Positions 438-24,658 of a DNA stretch of 27,029 bases are shown one piece after another. The notes beneath the pieces are model-generated. The model made no database searches. It was given only the letters and a program-made list of their open reading frames with translations, and was not told the origin of the DNA. The position numbers were made by a program, and so were the translations under genes. The number at the start of each line of letters is the position of its first letter. Within the stretch, counting starts at the first letter, position 1. Source of the stretch: a virus; IMG/VR virus record IMGVR_UViG_3300025155_000035, positions 1-27,029 of that record. The stretch is one strand, 5' to 3'.

Positions 438-2074
438 TATTCTCCTCTACGCCTTGGTAGGGCGGTAATCTCCGCAGATATGCCGTCGAGACCCCAAGAT
501 TGAGAACTTGAGGAAGTGGCAGTCAATTTAAGCATCATGTTTCGCCAGCGAAATCCGTTGGCTGCGTGAGTACGTATCAGAATACCATCCTCCTCACCAG
601 GCGAGGCATCAAGAGTGATAGGACCGGCTGCCGCAGTAGTCAAGTCGAAGTCTTTGTAGACGTTGAGGATGGTGTCTATGTCGGAGTCAATCTGACGAAA
701 CTCCAACTGACGGATACGATGCTTATTGAATCCCCCAACGGGCTGTATCCAGCCAGTACGAGCTTCCATAGTAAAGGCAGTTCCTTCGTCAGTTGAGAAC
801 TCATAAGCCAACATCGCAATTCCCCTGTTTCCAAAAACTTGAGTTGCTTGCAACGGCCTAGACGGATCGGCCAAGGAGTTGGTTATCGCAGTAGCGTTAC
901 GATGCCCTCTAATCATTTCAGATGAGACCCAGGGGGCAGTACGCCCTATGGGTATGTTCCATTGGGTCCAGGCACCATTGTTCACGTTATAGACAAAGGA
1001 AGTTGTTGTATAAGGTGGGTCAAGGACTGCATCTGAATGAAACACAGTCATCACCAAAAGCTGGCCGAAGCCCCACAATTGGGTGAGGTCTGCCAGATAC
1101 CTCCGACCACTCGCCAGGTCCACCACTCCTCGACGCCAGATACTACGGCTGGCGTCATGGAAAGCTGATCCGTCGAATCCGTGAAGTCCTTGCTTCGGGT
1201 CTACGAAGAACAGAACACCTCCATACTCTACCACACTGTCCGGGCTGGCCGTACCCAATCTGTCAGAAATCCTGGTGACTTCCAACCCAAGACCCTCGAA
1301 GTCTTTGCCCTGGATGCTGTATATCTCGTCTTGGAAGAAGACGATGATTTGATCTGCAAAGAACGAGATGGCATGGATGTCTTTGTTGGTATTCCCAATG
1401 TCTATGAAGTTGTTTGTTTCCCAGGTCTTGGGTAGTCCAGGCTCGGAGAAGTAGAGACGGTTCTTGGGGGTTATGTCAGCCCCATTGGCAACGAATATCC
1501 TCTCGTATATCTTGGCACCCACCCTGGCTTTCGGGAACTTGGTAGTTGTATTGCCCGAGGTAGGGTTCCACACAGTAAGGGTCACAACGGTAAAAGGGGA
1601 GGTGTCTGTTGTGATTTCAAGAACCCCAGCGTCGTCGTCCCTGACCGTCACATACAGGAGATTGGTAGACTGCCCGAACACGAGGAACCCGTTGGTCCAA
1701 TGGGCGCCCGCCTTGATACTCTCATATGCAACATCATCGGCTATCGGAACAAAGTAGAGTCCCTGTGTGACCGAGTCCTGGTTGACGATCCAATTGTTCC
1801 CCCCACTTATGGTAGTGGGTCCGGTATAGGTTATGGGTGGAAGAACGGCTGCAATGTGTGAAAAGTTCTTCGCATCCAAATCAGGGTGAAAGGTGTGGTC
1901 AGGAAAGGCAGGCAAGGTTGTGTTATACCCCGGTCGAGGCCGCAACCCGCCCTGATCGTCTATAAGGACATTGATAGCCTGAGCCAACTCGTCCAGTTCC
2001 AACATCTCAGGACGAGCAGTCAGATTCAGTCCCCTTTTCCAGGGGCCGATTGGGAGCAGTTCTCCCTGCGCCAC
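437..2074 (-). CDS. Nozzle-like beta-propeller tail protein
   Basis: This 545-residue protein starts at GTG after a GAGG ribosome binding site. It is probably the tail nozzle or hub ring that closes the head-tail channel of a podovirus-like particle. The N-terminus carries GGLRPRPG, a turn near the start of many phage proteins of this type. The middle (about residues 190-320) has repeated beta-strand blades (RIFVANG, NRLYFSEPG, DQIIVFFQDEIYSI, VLFFVDPKQGLHGFDG), as expected for a propeller such as T7 gp12 or P22 gp10. It lies directly after the adaptor gene with a 2-nt gap and before the fibre gene, the usual order for head-tail completion proteins. No sequence signature separates nozzle from stabilisation protein. 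Confidence 0.7.
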   Translation of the reverse strand: MAQGELLPIGPWKRGLNLTARPEMLELDELAQAINVLIDDQGGLRPRPGYNTTLPAFPDHTFHPDLDAKNFSHIAAVLPPITYTGPTTISGGNNWIVNQDSVTQGLYFVPIADDVAYESIKAGAHWTNGFLVFGQSTNLLYVTVRDDDAGVLEITTDTSPFTVVTLTVWNPTSGNTTTKFPKARVGAKIYERIFVANGADITPKNRLYFSEPGLPKTWETNNFIDIGNTNKDIHAISFFADQIIVFFQDEIYSIQGKDFEGLGLEVTRISDRLGTASPDSVVEYGGVLFFVDPKQGLHGFDGSAFHDASRSIWRRGVVDLASGRRYLADLTQLWGFGQLLVMTVFHSDAVLDPPYTTTSFVYNVNNGAWTQWNIPIGRTAPWVSSEMIRGHRNATAITNSLADPSRPLQATQVFGNRGIAMLAYEFSTDEGTAFTMEARTGWIQPVGGFNKHRIRQLEFRQIDSDIDTILNVYKDFDLTTAAAGPITLDASPGEEDGILIRTHAANGFRWRNMMLKLTATSSSSQSWGLDGISAEITALPRRRGE

Positions 2075-16105: not shown

Positions 16106-16270
16106 GTGTATGAACTAACAATCCTGGTCAGCCTAGGGGCTGGCGGTGACGAGTTCTTTGATAAGGTACTCGACGCAATTGACAACGACAAAGAGAGGGT
16201 CATCATCGAAATGGTCGGAGAGTACGGTCATCTGACCGTGGATGCCCTCATTAGGAAGGACGAGCAATGA
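16106..16270 (+). CDS. Hypothetical protein (54 residues)
   Basis: I place the start at GTG 16106 (GTG TAT GAA), which follows AAGGAAGG. The longer frame from 16022 overlaps the previous gene and lacks a site. The protein reads YELTILVSLGAGGDEFFDKV, then a charged helix and strand. Its stop overlaps the next ATG. The function is unknown. Confidence 0.65.
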   Translation: MYELTILVSLGAGGDEFFDKVLDAIDNDKERVIIEMVGEYGHLTVDALIRKDEQ

Positions 16271-16629
16271 ACCACGATCCACACCTAGTCAGGTATACGG
16301 TCGGCATCGGATTCGAGACGCAAAGATTCGTTGAGTCGGCCTTGTCCCGGCGACAGATTGATGGTGCCACGATCATCGACGCATGGGGCTACTGGCGAAA
16401 CCCTGAGACTGGACAGGTAGAGACTGAACCTTCACAAGTTCTGGTCTTGACTCATACCTCGCCGGAAGACTTCGGATTCCAATTCGCTACGGTCATGGCA
16501 TGGGCACAAGACCACGGCGAGCACACGGTCATGGTCGAACACCACAACTTGGTGCAATTCGTACCGACCGATGGCGACTGGATGGAGGCGGCGGCACTAT
16601 TGGATGGTATCCATGAAGACCTACCCTGA
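16267..16629 (+). CDS. Hypothetical protein (120 residues)
   Basis: The ATG overlaps the previous stop (ATGA). The protein has strand VRYTVGIGFETQRFVESALS, a turn AWGYWRNPETGQVETEPS, and strands VLVLTHTSPEDFGFQF followed by a helix MAWAQDHGEHTVMVEH. The pattern is an alpha/beta sandwich. The family is not recognised. The last 17 nt overlap the next gene. Confidence 0.7.
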   Translation: MNHDPHLVRYTVGIGFETQRFVESALSRRQIDGATIIDAWGYWRNPETGQVETEPSQVLVLTHTSPEDFGFQFATVMAWAQDHGEHTVMVEHHNLVQFVPTDGDWMEAAALLDGIHEDLP

Positions 16630-21541: not shown

Positions 21542-21987
21542 TGAGAATCACAGTTGACATACCCACCGTGGCCTTGAAGTATGGTTACGGTACGGTGACC
21601 CGAGCACATATCATGACTGATCCGGGTGAAATCTATTCGTTGGCAGTAAACGGCCAGACGGAGCGAGAGGGTTATACGAGCGTGGCCTGTCACGAGCATA
21701 CTGTTGAACACTCGGGGCGCATGCTCGATGTGAACCCTGACTTGCCCTTGTGTCGCAAGTGCATACACGCCATGAACCTGTATGTTGGAGCCGGGCTCTC
21801 AGCCTATCCGAGCACTACCTTCAAGCGTGGGACACGTCGAAGCATGAGCCCGCTCGACAAGAGATTGGCCCGAGTCTATGACCGTCTCCGCAAGAGGGCA
21901 TGGCGATGGATGGCGTCATGGAAGTACGAGGTGTATATGGTTGGGGTTAACGATGGTCTCGACGCCATCAGAAAGGAATTGACATGA
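21541..21987 (+). CDS. Hypothetical Cys-containing protein (148 residues)
   Basis: The ATG overlaps the previous stop. The protein has two halves: a strand-rich N-terminal part with CHEHTVEHSG...CRKCIHAMN (possible zinc site) and a very basic C-terminal helix (DKRLARVYDRLRKRAWRWMASW). Nucleic-acid binding would fit. The family is not recognised. Confidence 0.65.
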   Translation: MRITVDIPTVALKYGYGTVTRAHIMTDPGEIYSLAVNGQTEREGYTSVACHEHTVEHSGRMLDVNPDLPLCRKCIHAMNLYVGAGLSAYPSTTFKRGTRRSMSPLDKRLARVYDRLRKRAWRWMASWKYEVYMVGVNDGLDAIRKELT

Positions 21988-22700
21988 GACTGAGAGACGA
22001 TACGGTGAGTTGGCTACTTGGGCTGCTCGCCTTCCTCGTGGGTGTCATACTGGTGATGCTTGCTCTAAGCGACATAGCTCGGGCCGATCATGGTGATTCT
22101 TCACCGTTCTGTCCCGACCTGGACACCGGCTTCATCCACTCCTCTCCGATAGACCCTGTCTATGAGGAGATTGTGACCGCACCGGACGGGCTCCTGATTG
22201 ATGCGTACTGTGTCAAGGCCGGGAACGTCCATCGTGGCGAAGGCCCTGTCCTCATCGTGGTGGACCCACCACAGAAGACGGTGAGCATCGTGTATCCGAG
22301 ACCTGACCCCTTATATCCAGCACCACTACCAATCAGCTACTACACGCTGAGCTTCATAGAGGAGGATTCATCATCGACCGTTCCAGAGATAACGACAACG
22401 ACAGTCCCACCTACCACTACCACGTTCGAGGAGGAGACAACTACTACACCCGCCTTGTCGTCTACCACGACCACGAGTGGGCAGGTACCCACCACCAGCA
22501 CGGACCCGACGACATCGACACTCCCGTCTACATCAACCTCGATAGGGGTGAGCGGCCCACCGACCCTCCCATTCACAGGGAGCGAGGGGGCGGGGTCTCT
22601 AGTGGGTCTGGCTCTGATGCTGATGTTGAGCGGTGGATTGGCCCTGTTGGGCGCCATCAGGCAACCACCCGAAACTGGTGATCTGGACCAAAGCAGCTAA
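21984..22700 (+). CDS. LPFTG-type cell-wall-anchored surface protein
   Basis: This 238-residue protein carries the parts of a sortase substrate. A signal peptide (hydrophobic 10-28, cleavage near ARA|DHG at 34-35) is followed by an exported domain of ~90 residues with two Cys (43 and ~75). A Thr/Ser/Pro-rich stalk (~130-190) follows. LPFTG begins at residue 195, with a hydrophobic segment ~205-225 after it. The charged tail after the membrane segment is weakly positive at first and then acidic, which is unusual. Host sortase would link it to peptidoglycan. The Thr-rich stalk style is common in Actinomycetota. It may alter phage adsorption, block superinfection or act at the envelope. Confidence 0.85.
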   Translation: MRLRDDTVSWLLGLLAFLVGVILVMLALSDIARADHGDSSPFCPDLDTGFIHSSPIDPVYEEIVTAPDGLLIDAYCVKAGNVHRGEGPVLIVVDPPQKTVSIVYPRPDPLYPAPLPISYYTLSFIEEDSSSTVPEITTTTVPPTTTTFEEETTTTPALSSTTTTSGQVPTTSTDPTTSTLPSTSTSIGVSGPPTLPFTGSEGAGSLVGLALMLMLSGGLALLGAIRQPPETGDLDQSS

Positions 22701-23364
22701 GTATATGCGAGGGTATACTCAAGCGATTGCTCACTAGACGTACTGCGGGGGGTCCAGGGTGTTCCCTTTCTCGCCCTCGGCTCCCCGTAGTATCGCATGT
22801 GTCGTCAACAGAAGGGAGTGGACTGCACGAAATGACAGGATCGTGATCAAAGCACCGAGTGGGCCTCCACTTGGAGCCCCGAGAGCCAGGTCATGCTGAC
22901 CTCGGGGCACGAAACAACCGAGTAGGCGGTGAAGCGAGCGGCCCTCGTCCACCAGATGGGTATAACTACTCTGCTTGGAGAGACGAGCGACCTTGGGATA
23001 GTCCCTCACCCTGGCCAGTGATTGACTGGCTGCCACGAGCCGGGTGGCGAGGGAGAATCCCAGGGACCGGCTCTCATTTGACAACAGAACTCCCCTCGAC
23101 GGAGGGGACAGGGGCCTAGATGGTAACCCCACAAGGTAAGAGGCCAGGACGATGTGCACCTCCTGGCCCGCCCCGACAGCCCCCACCAGGGAGGGGGTGA
23201 AGTAGTCCCTGGTACACAGAGCCCATGTGCGAGCGGTGAGTGGGCAAGGTAGTTCCAGTCGCACGAGGTCTGACCCCAAGCGAGACTTGACAGTAGGACC
23301 TACCGGGAGAGTGCGAGAGCATGGAACGAGGGATCGTATACCCGACCTTCCACTCGACTCTCCC
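22701..23364 (+). ncRNA. Candidate large structured RNA upstream of tRNAs
   Basis: No coding frame here has a binding site or credible composition. Perfect or near-perfect stems crowd it: 22741-22750/22783-22792 (10 bp, one G-U on the plus strand), 22876-22883/22901-22908 (8), 22944-22949/22982-22987 (6), 23014-23019/23025-23030 (6), 23037-23043/23067-23073 (7), 23091-23097/23102-23108 (7), 23142-23149/23161-23168 (8), 23185-23192/23206-23213 (8), 23221-23225/23241-23245 (5), 23248-23252/23300-23304 (5) and 23305-23317/23353-23364 (12 with one bulge). GGGTATAC at 22711-22718 is complementary to 23336-23343. Size and position beside phage tRNAs recall ornate RNAs of the GOLLD and ROOL type; membership is not shown. 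Ends are approximate. Confidence 0.55.
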
Positions 23365-23367
23365 TAT

Positions 23368-23435
23368 ACGGGGTACGTCGTGGGACGTACAGGCTTCCAA
23401 CACCTGGAGGCGGGGTTCGACTCCTCGACCCCGTG
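23368..23435 (+). tRNA. tRNA-Trp (CCA), short D-loop
   Basis: The acceptor ACGGGGT/ACCCCGT pairs fully, with discriminator G, the usual base for bacterial tRNA-Trp. The anticodon arm is CAGGC-TTCCAAC-ACCTG (anticodon CCA, last pair C-A mismatched). The variable loop has 4 nt. The T arm is CGGGG-TTCGACT-CCTCG with one G-U. The D arm is reduced (GTC-GTGG-GAC) and can form a competing 7-bp hairpin with flanking bases. CCA is not encoded. It starts 3 nt after the long hairpin of the structured region. Confidence 0.75.
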
Positions 23436-23535
23436 CGCCTTGGCTCCCATCCGGCGGGTACCCGTCGAGTTGGGTGGGTGTAGTTAGAACCGGATATCTG
23501 ACGGCATACCAGTGGAAGCTGGGCCAAAGGCTCAA
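23436..23535 (+). other. Structured spacer between tRNA genes
   Basis: These 100 nt hold no gene. CCCATCC (23446-23452) pairs with GGGTGGG (23472-23478) with one G-U, around a CGGGTACCCG palindrome. Later CCAG/CTGG and GGGCC/GGCTC hairpins occur. A stretch GTGTAGTTAGAAC recalls a tRNA D arm, but no T loop follows, so I do not call a tRNA. It may belong to the upstream RNA or guide processing. Confidence 0.4.
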
Positions 23536-23614
23536 GCCGACGATCCCTGTGGAGGGAAGCAGGCTGTAACCCTGCGGCCGGAAGGCATACTAGGTTCGAC
23601 TCCTAGCGGCGGCA
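23536..23614 (+). tRNA. tRNA-Tyr (GTA)
   Basis: The acceptor GCCGACG/CGGCGGC has one A-G mismatch and discriminator A. The D stem is CCC/GGG with a short loop. The anticodon arm GCAGG-CTGTAAC-CCTGC is perfect with anticodon GTA. The long class II variable arm (14 nt, GCC-GGAA-GGC) is expected for bacterial tRNA-Tyr. The T arm CTAGG-TTCGACT-CCTAG is perfect. CCA is not encoded. Confidence 0.85.
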
Positions 23615-23624
23615 CTTCGTCTTA

Positions 23625-23697
23625 GTCGGGGTGGCCGTTGGTTTGCCCGCACAGACTCATAATCTGTGTCACGTCGGTTCGATTCCGACCCCCGCCA
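23625..23697 (+). tRNA. tRNA-Met (CAT), elongator or Ile2 type
   Basis: The acceptor GTCGGGG/CCCCGCC has one T-C mismatch at the second pair and discriminator A. The D arm is GGC/GCC with a 9-nt loop containing GG. The anticodon arm ACAGA-CTCATAA-TCTGT is perfect. The variable loop is GTCAC, and the T arm GTCGG-TTCGATT-CCGAC is perfect. The paired first acceptor position and the lack of three G-C pairs in the anticodon stem argue against an initiator. With CAT it could also be a lysidine-modified isoleucine tRNA. Confidence 0.85.
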
Positions 23698-23716
23698 CGA
23701 GAGACAGGAAGGTTGA

Positions 23717-24658
23717 ATGGACTCAGGATCATTGGCTACCTCCAGACTGAAGGGCATCAAGACCCTCAGTCAACAGGTCGAAGGATGGAAGCAGGAGGTA
23801 GCCGATCCTAAGCGGCGCATCCCCCTCGGATGGTCAGCCCTCGACCAGCTAGTGCGTGGCCCTGCCCGAGGTGAGGTGTTCACCGTGATCGCCCACTCCG
23901 AGGTTGGCAAGAGCTTGATTGCCACCAACATCATGGCTAACAACCCGAACGAGCGCATCCTGTTCTTCAGCCTGGAGATGCCTGACCATCAGGTACTCCA
24001 TCGCCTCACTTCCCATGTCTTCAACTACCCTTCCCGAGACCTGGAGACACAGGCAATGGACCTCTACCTTCCCGACTTTGTCGCAGAGCTAGAACAACGC
24101 CTTCCCTTCCAAGTGATCGTGGACGACAGCAGCCTCAACTTCGATGACATGTCAGCCTATGCCGAAGACTACGCCACATGGTACGGCGAGCGCCCCAACC
24201 TTGTCATCATCGACTACCTAGAGGAAGTGGCCGGGGGCAAGCAGTCCGCTGAAGGATGGCTACGCACCGAGGCCACCGCCTCGATGGCCAAGGCGTGGGC
24301 GAGGAACGAACGACTCGGGCTCATCATGCTCCACCAATCCAATCGTGGCTTCGGGATGCCCCGAGAATGGGAGCCACCCACTCGTAAGAGCGCCCGAGGT
24401 GGTGGCTACACTGAGGCTGATGTGGTCATGGGTCTGTGGCGTCCCGGCTGGGACCCAACCCTCAACCCACGGTCGAGAGCCGAGCGGGAGAATTGGATAG
24501 GTGTCAACATCATCAAGAATCGAGTGCGTGGATTGCGACACGATGGCATTCTGTTCGAGATCGACCCCGCTATGCGGATAGTCCCGCACTACGCCTGGGG
24601 TCCGGGCACTCCGCATTTCGTAGAATCGTCTGAGAGAGAACGAGCGGACCTGGCATGA
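23717..24658 (+). CDS. DnaB-like replicative helicase (RecA-fold domain)
   Basis: This 313-residue protein starts 19 nt after the tRNA cluster with AGGAAGG upstream. It is a single RecA-like ATPase domain: linker-type N-terminus, IPLGWSALDQLVRG (residues 35-48, typical of DnaB family), Walker A AHSEVGKS at 59-66, FFSLEMPDHQ, and Walker B LVIIDYLEEV at 162-171. LIMLHQSNRG at 202-211 and the IIKNRVRG...FEIDP arm follow. The first Walker Gly is Ala. It lacks the N-terminal primase-binding domain of host DnaB, as in several phage helicases. It should unwind DNA at the fork with the CHC2 protein nearby. Confidence 0.88.
   Translation: MDSGSLATSRLKGIKTLSQQVEGWKQEVADPKRRIPLGWSALDQLVRGPARGEVFTVIAHSEVGKSLIATNIMANNPNERILFFSLEMPDHQVLHRLTSHVFNYPSRDLETQAMDLYLPDFVAELEQRLPFQVIVDDSSLNFDDMSAYAEDYATWYGERPNLVIIDYLEEVAGGKQSAEGWLRTEATASMAKAWARNERLGLIMLHQSNRGFGMPREWEPPTRKSARGGGYTEADVVMGLWRPGWDPTLNPRSRAERENWIGVNIIKNRVRGLRHDGILFEIDPAMRIVPHYAWGPGTPHFVESSERERADLA

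Follow-up and report, generated by a model that had tools for sequence, protein, structure and literature searches.

What is encoded in the 667 nt that separate the end of an open reading frame (ORF) at 21984-22700 from the start of a tRNA-Trp gene at 23368? The window, a 27,029-base virus record taken at its full length, has leftward genes for terminase, portal, major capsid protein (MCP), an SU10-type adaptor, and further virion proteins, and rightward genes for an HNH protein, an exonuclease, a DnaB-like helicase, and a primase-type zinc ribbon. The best annotated relative of this phage is MW202803, a podovirus assembled from Manatee Spring. The original prediction held that 22701-23364 may specify a large ornate RNA, either a member of GOLLD or ROOL or a new class. 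We find that a structured noncoding stretch does lie beside the phage tRNAs, and that GOLLD or ROOL membership is not borne out, as neither model matches. The ORF at 21984-22700 has no match in Pfam or PHROG. It consists of an N-terminal membrane or signal segment, a Thr/Ser/Pro-rich middle, and an LPFTG sorting-signal-like C-terminal tail, a layout whose product is possibly a cell-wall-anchored phage protein of a Gram-positive host.

The coordinates given for a stretch of ~660 nt with no credible gene were correct, and all six frames lack a coding signal. With codon usage scored by training on genes of the same phage, we find positive values until ~22679 and again from ~23775 (inside dnaB); between these points every stop-free frame scores 0.06 or less. 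ORFs of 22701-23364 have no credible match in Pfam or PHROG (a single PHROG appears, at E = 0.096 only), read-through of all six frames finds no match in PHROG, and no conserved open frame was seen across the locus. An unrecognized or decayed protein gene is nonetheless a reading to consider, for example the 181-aa open frame on the minus strand (22734-23279). However, this ORF starts with TTG, is oriented opposite to the flanking genes, has a codon score of -0.01 that is typical of spurious ORFs, and has no relative by tblastn or scan, and we regard a protein-coding explanation as scarcely credible. Coding had also been described as nearly gapless elsewhere; the long gap is real, but a few shorter gaps do occur in the window. 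The gap at 15.2-15.9 kb was set aside as an RNA candidate and resembles small genes with ribosome-binding sites.

The stretch is unusually rich in stems. Exactly three perfect 8-bp stems with short loops are present, as had been claimed, and three are reached in none of 500 dinucleotide shuffles, which average 0.21; elsewhere in the window the mean is 0.36 per 664 nt. One other stretch, at ~14.3-14.9 kb, has four such stems and includes a noncoding part (~14.55-14.79 kb). The G-U pair predicted for a 10-bp stem on the plus strand is likewise there, once, in TACTGCGGGG/CCCCGTAGTA (22741-22750/22783-22792), which forms part of the long hairpin. The minimum free energy (MFE) of the plus strand is lower than that of 100 out of 100 shuffles. 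Coding segments of the window match or undercut this relative folding energy, and given that a segment of the MCP gene reaches lower values, folding energy alone is no proof. Neither adenine content at unpaired positions nor the count of high-probability pairs is above shuffles. Essentially any RNA has structure, and selection is shown only by conservation (PMC11234323). What we have at 22701-23364 is a real, noncoding, stably folding phage locus, and its predicted parts are collected with the neighboring genes in Table 1.

Table 1. Features of the locus and its neighbors, in window coordinates.
Feature	Position	Strand	Remarks
Upstream gene	21984..22700	+	signal-peptide/low-complexity protein, LPFTG sorting-signal-like tail
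Candidate structured noncoding RNA, whole	22701..23364	+	coding signal absent; MFE z -4.0 (+), -2.1 (-)
Possible end-to-end pairing	22711..23343	+	GGGTATAC (22711-22718) with GTATACCC (23336-23343)
Long hairpin	22741..22792	+	22741-22754/22779-22792 and 22756-22761/22772-22777; pair probability 0.97-0.99
Predicted multibranched middle domain	22859..23132	+	pair probabilities mostly 0.74-1.0
Perfect 8-bp stem	22876-22883/22901-22908	+	loop 17; alternative pairing within middle domain
Best-supported sub-domain	22992..23064	+	nested stems 22992-22999/23057-23064 and 23002-23007/23049-23054, closing two hairpins; probability 0.94-1.0
Perfect 8-bp hairpin GGCCAGGA/TCCTGGCC	23142..23168	+	stem 23142-23149/23161-23168, loop 11; pair probability 0.99
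Perfect 8-bp hairpin ACCAGGGA/TCCCTGGT	23185..23213	+	stem 23185-23192/23206-23213, loop 13; shorter form ACCAG/CTGGT in G018
Core common to window and G018 syntenic locus	23205..23275	+	GTCCCTGGTAC (23205), TGGGCAAGGTAG (23241), AGGTCTGACC (23266)
Predicted hairpin GTGCGA/TCGCAC, TGGGCAAGGTAG between arms	23227..23264	+	local MFE, sequence comparison
3' terminal stem-loop GGGAGAGT/ACTCTCCC	23305..23364	+	pair probability 0.95-1.0; ends 3 nt before tRNA-Trp
tRNA-Trp(CCA)	23368..23436	+	4-nt D-loop; similar genes in G002, G021
Second noncoding element	23437..23535	+	four-way junction fold with GGAA loop; z -2.4
tRNA-Tyr(GTA)	23536..23615	+	
tRNA-Met-type(CAT)	23625..23698	+	
DnaB-like replicative helicase gene	23717..24658	+	synteny anchor

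These predictions differ in how well they hold up. The end-to-end pairing is weak, with 8 bp between the ends found in 3.7% of shuffles, and 23227-23264 pairs one way in the local MFE and another way in the MFE of the region as a whole. The 3' terminal stem-loop is not followed by a U-run and is thus not an intrinsic terminator, and no plus-strand terminator was found between 22701-23364 and the tRNAs. The 99 nt between tRNA-Trp and tRNA-Tyr adopt a cloverleaf-like predicted fold with the GGAA loop where a T-loop would be expected, and this second element could belong to the same RNA as 22701-23364. Covariance model searches of the relatives found no copy of the best-supported sub-domain and, with a single-sequence model, none of the second element.

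We compared the locus to known RNA families. A cmscan of the entire window against Rfam 15 at gathering thresholds, and one of 22600-23720 with lax filters, returned tRNA-type and chance matches only. Searched alone, the GOLLD model RF02032 and the ROOL model RF03087 (the latter run without a positive control) have no match. Models of group I and group II intron catalytic cores identified no intron family up to E = 5 in the lax cmscan, and RF01998, a group II intron family, gave only noise. Within 22701-23364 there is no tRNA or tmRNA cloverleaf and there are no permuted tRNA ends. With no Rfam match, the stretch is not a recognizable GOLLD or ROOL.

Related phages offer a second line of evidence. 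The closest phage that we found in IMG/VR is G018, a 40,750-bp contig identified via DnaB profiles, with 66% identity to the window phage in MCP, 56% in portal, 47% in terminase, 47% in exonuclease, and 62% in DnaB. Its replication genes are collinear with those of the window, and it has no counterpart of the ORF at 21984-22700. At the corresponding place in G018, ~370 noncoding nt separate a small gene (g3) from dnaB; they contain a tRNA-like fold (16229-16293, minus strand) followed by a stretch in which the three core motifs occur in the same order as in the window. Of 10,000 shuffles, 1 attains the collinear-chain score of this stretch (31), and no other segment of the G018 genome scores above 27. 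A stricter score without overlaps is reached by 11 of 5,000. The chain statistic was devised only after the motifs had been noticed by eye, and the relation is invisible both to ordinary local alignment of the two islands (97 of 300 shuffles score equally well) and to single-sequence covariance models, which fail to find the G018 locus; for these reasons we call homology of the G018 locus to the window core likely and go no further. G018 is a single possible homolog, most of whose length is not alignable to 22701-23364. Both the GTGCGA and TCGCAC arms sit in window segments that are missing from G018, flank TGGGCAAGGTAG, and are complementary to each other, the pattern that an inserted helix would give. 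A two-motif scan of viral contigs returned G018 and three other matches, which we discount as chance since they lie inside coding sequence. As a separate observation, the G018 DnaB (L186:14141-16060, minus strand) is a single open frame of 639 aa; past residue 233 or so, the helicase is interrupted by some 300 aa of in-frame sequence that looks like an intein.

Beyond G018, the search of related phage contigs yielded no alignment of the depth that a covariation analysis requires. Neither the 50,697 phage records nor the 72,556 plasmid records contain a DNA relative of the stretch, and a 45-nt match from these searches was rejected, as it falls in the tRNA part of the query. No close phage relatives were found by exact DnaB and terL peptides, additional MCP-based relatives gave no dnaB match, and GTDB genomes contain distant DnaB only. 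Searching ~0.5 Mb of relatives with three single-sequence covariance models turned up no credible copy, and a match in G001 (78% over 40 nt) was dismissed, as it sits at the junction of two ORFs. MW202803 has Trp and Met tRNAs and no room for such an RNA there. G019 and G021 have noncoding space (~280 and ~260 nt, respectively) after an SSB-like gene and upstream of dnaB. In G021 this space includes two tRNA-like pieces (L194:440-493 and 514-569, plus strand), each an acceptor plus T-arm with no normal cloverleaf and uncalled by ARAGORN. In G009, a bare acceptor-stem and T-arm element (35163-35201, minus strand; L095) lies between the exonuclease and SSB-like genes. Its sequence, TCCCCG-ACTTGGTT-GCAGGTTCGAATCCTGT-GCGGGGACA, resembles a minimal RNase P substrate in shape, and it could punctuate an mRNA. 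In G002, tRNA-Trp and tRNA-Met genes near terL are followed, directly after tRNA-Met, by ~440 structured noncoding nt (L005:8090-8529, minus strand) with z scores of -4.7 on their strand and -3.5 on the other, no Rfam match, and no similarity to the window RNA. None of the islands of G019, G021, G009, and G002 aligns with the window RNA. Given these varied tRNA-bearing and noncoding stretches, the lineage seems to carry a variable tRNA/structured-RNA island, of which the window is the largest example seen.

tRNA-Trp genes whose D-loop is very short (4 nt in the window and in G002) or otherwise shortened recur in the lineage and in an unrelated tRNA-rich phage contig (window gene in Table 1; L005:8645-8714; L195:5262-5330; L103:3840-3867). 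Our scan for short-D-loop tRNA-Trp genes found G002 and one unrelated tRNA-rich phage contig and nothing else; ARAGORN is silent on the gene in the unrelated contig.

What, then, does the locus do? We propose, tentatively and at slightly less than an even chance, that 22701-23364 specifies a structured noncoding RNA that is processed by tRNA maturation from the tRNA-dnaB transcript and acts in trans. The region would be transcribed rightward with the replication genes, on a transcript that also holds the three tRNAs and dnaB. Given that there is no plus-strand terminator and that the terminal stem ends three bases before tRNA-Trp, co-transcription and release by tRNA maturation is the simplest mechanism. 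RNase P maturation of tRNA-Trp would cut at 23367/23368, 3 nt past the terminal stem, and release an RNA of ~660 nt with a protected 3' end. The released RNA may accumulate during infection and act as a folded RNA, with the conserved TGGGCAAGGTAG, held between hairpin arms, as its putative contact site. The noncoding character, excess stability, strand preference, tRNA neighbors, and lack of a plus-strand terminator all support this reading, as do the three perfect 8-bp stems, the several helices with pair probabilities of 0.94-1.0, and the probable common core in the syntenic noncoding stretch of G018. Against it, G018 alone shares anything with the locus, and MW202803, G002, and G009 have no such stretch next to dnaB. 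A bolder version, which we consider unlikely, is that the locus represents a new class of large structured phage RNA with no sequence relation to GOLLD or ROOL. Such an RNA would recur beside tRNAs and dnaB in this podovirus-like lineage, would change very fast except in a short core, and would act during infection in a processed and perhaps multimeric form.

The main non-functional rival is neutral decay, in which the region is a fast-decaying intergenic island of tRNA and insert remnants between replication genes, with no selected function beyond the intact tRNAs and foldable because it is GC-rich. The size of the island, ~1 kb with three tRNAs and an extra ORF here as against the far smaller islands of G018, G019, and G021, fits such decay, as do the absence of any island next to dnaB in G002 and G009, the degenerate look of the tRNA-like pieces in G018, G021, and G009, and the lack of significant alignment among the islands. 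However, stability and stem density exceed those of shuffles, the core is collinear with that of G018, and phage genomes seldom retain 660 nt of useless DNA; on balance we think neutral decay somewhat improbable, if a serious contender. The main functional rival is a cis-acting leader, a long 5' region of the tRNA-dnaB transcript through which the replication genes are controlled at the level of elongation, processing, or translation. In G018, roughly 90 nt, taken up by just a short hairpin or tRNA-like stretch, separate the core from the predicted start of dnaB, and the window core shares its strand and presumed operon with dnaB. Three tRNAs nevertheless intervene between the RNA and dnaB in the window, and their processing would cut the transcript; no Rfam regulatory family matches; and in G019, G002, and G009 dnaB is not directly preceded by a leader of this kind. 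We therefore view a leader as distinctly unlikely. The best reading of the locus, promising but unproven, is a fast-evolving structured RNA that is co-transcribed with tRNAs, set free by their processing, like GOLLD and ROOL in setting, and unrelated to them in sequence.

Among known systems, tmRNA is a structured RNA that phages can carry and whose ends resemble tRNA in known examples; for this window neither ARAGORN nor Rfam reports a tmRNA. The locus resembles phage tRNA arrays in that three same-strand tRNAs directly follow 22701-23364 and relatives have tRNAs or tRNA-like pieces in the corresponding area, but the stretch itself contains no tRNA and no T-arm (GTTCRA) element. GOLLD is a large structured RNA of phages and prophages that is often found near tRNA islands (PMC12286853), and the location of our locus in a phage near tRNA genes agrees with this. 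Many GOLLD RNAs exceed 800 nt, as against 664 nt here, and there is no sequence or structure match at any threshold. ROOL RNAs also occur in phages and prophages near tRNA islands, with 659 nt in the cryo-EM example (PMC12286853); in a comparison of model search, length, and location, our locus is ROOL-like in position and in being a noncoding stretch of ~600 nt beside phage tRNAs, but has no match to the ROOL covariance model. The similar length, the phage genome, and the adjacent tRNAs would suit a divergent GOLLD or ROOL that current models miss. Given that neither standard nor lax filters nor the two families searched alone gave a match, and that the GOLLD 3' region is described as universally conserved (PMC12286853), we hold this to be very improbable. 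GOLLD and ROOL are large RNAs that lie beside tRNAs in phages and form cages, and they have no known function (PMC12286853). If an unrelated RNA does occupy a comparable position, this would suggest that large structured RNAs have arisen beside tRNAs more than once in phages, and such repeated evolution would hint at a role connected with tRNA supply or translation. The short core common to two related phages with very different islands provides one concrete element, namely TGGGCAAGGTAG between predicted hairpin arms.
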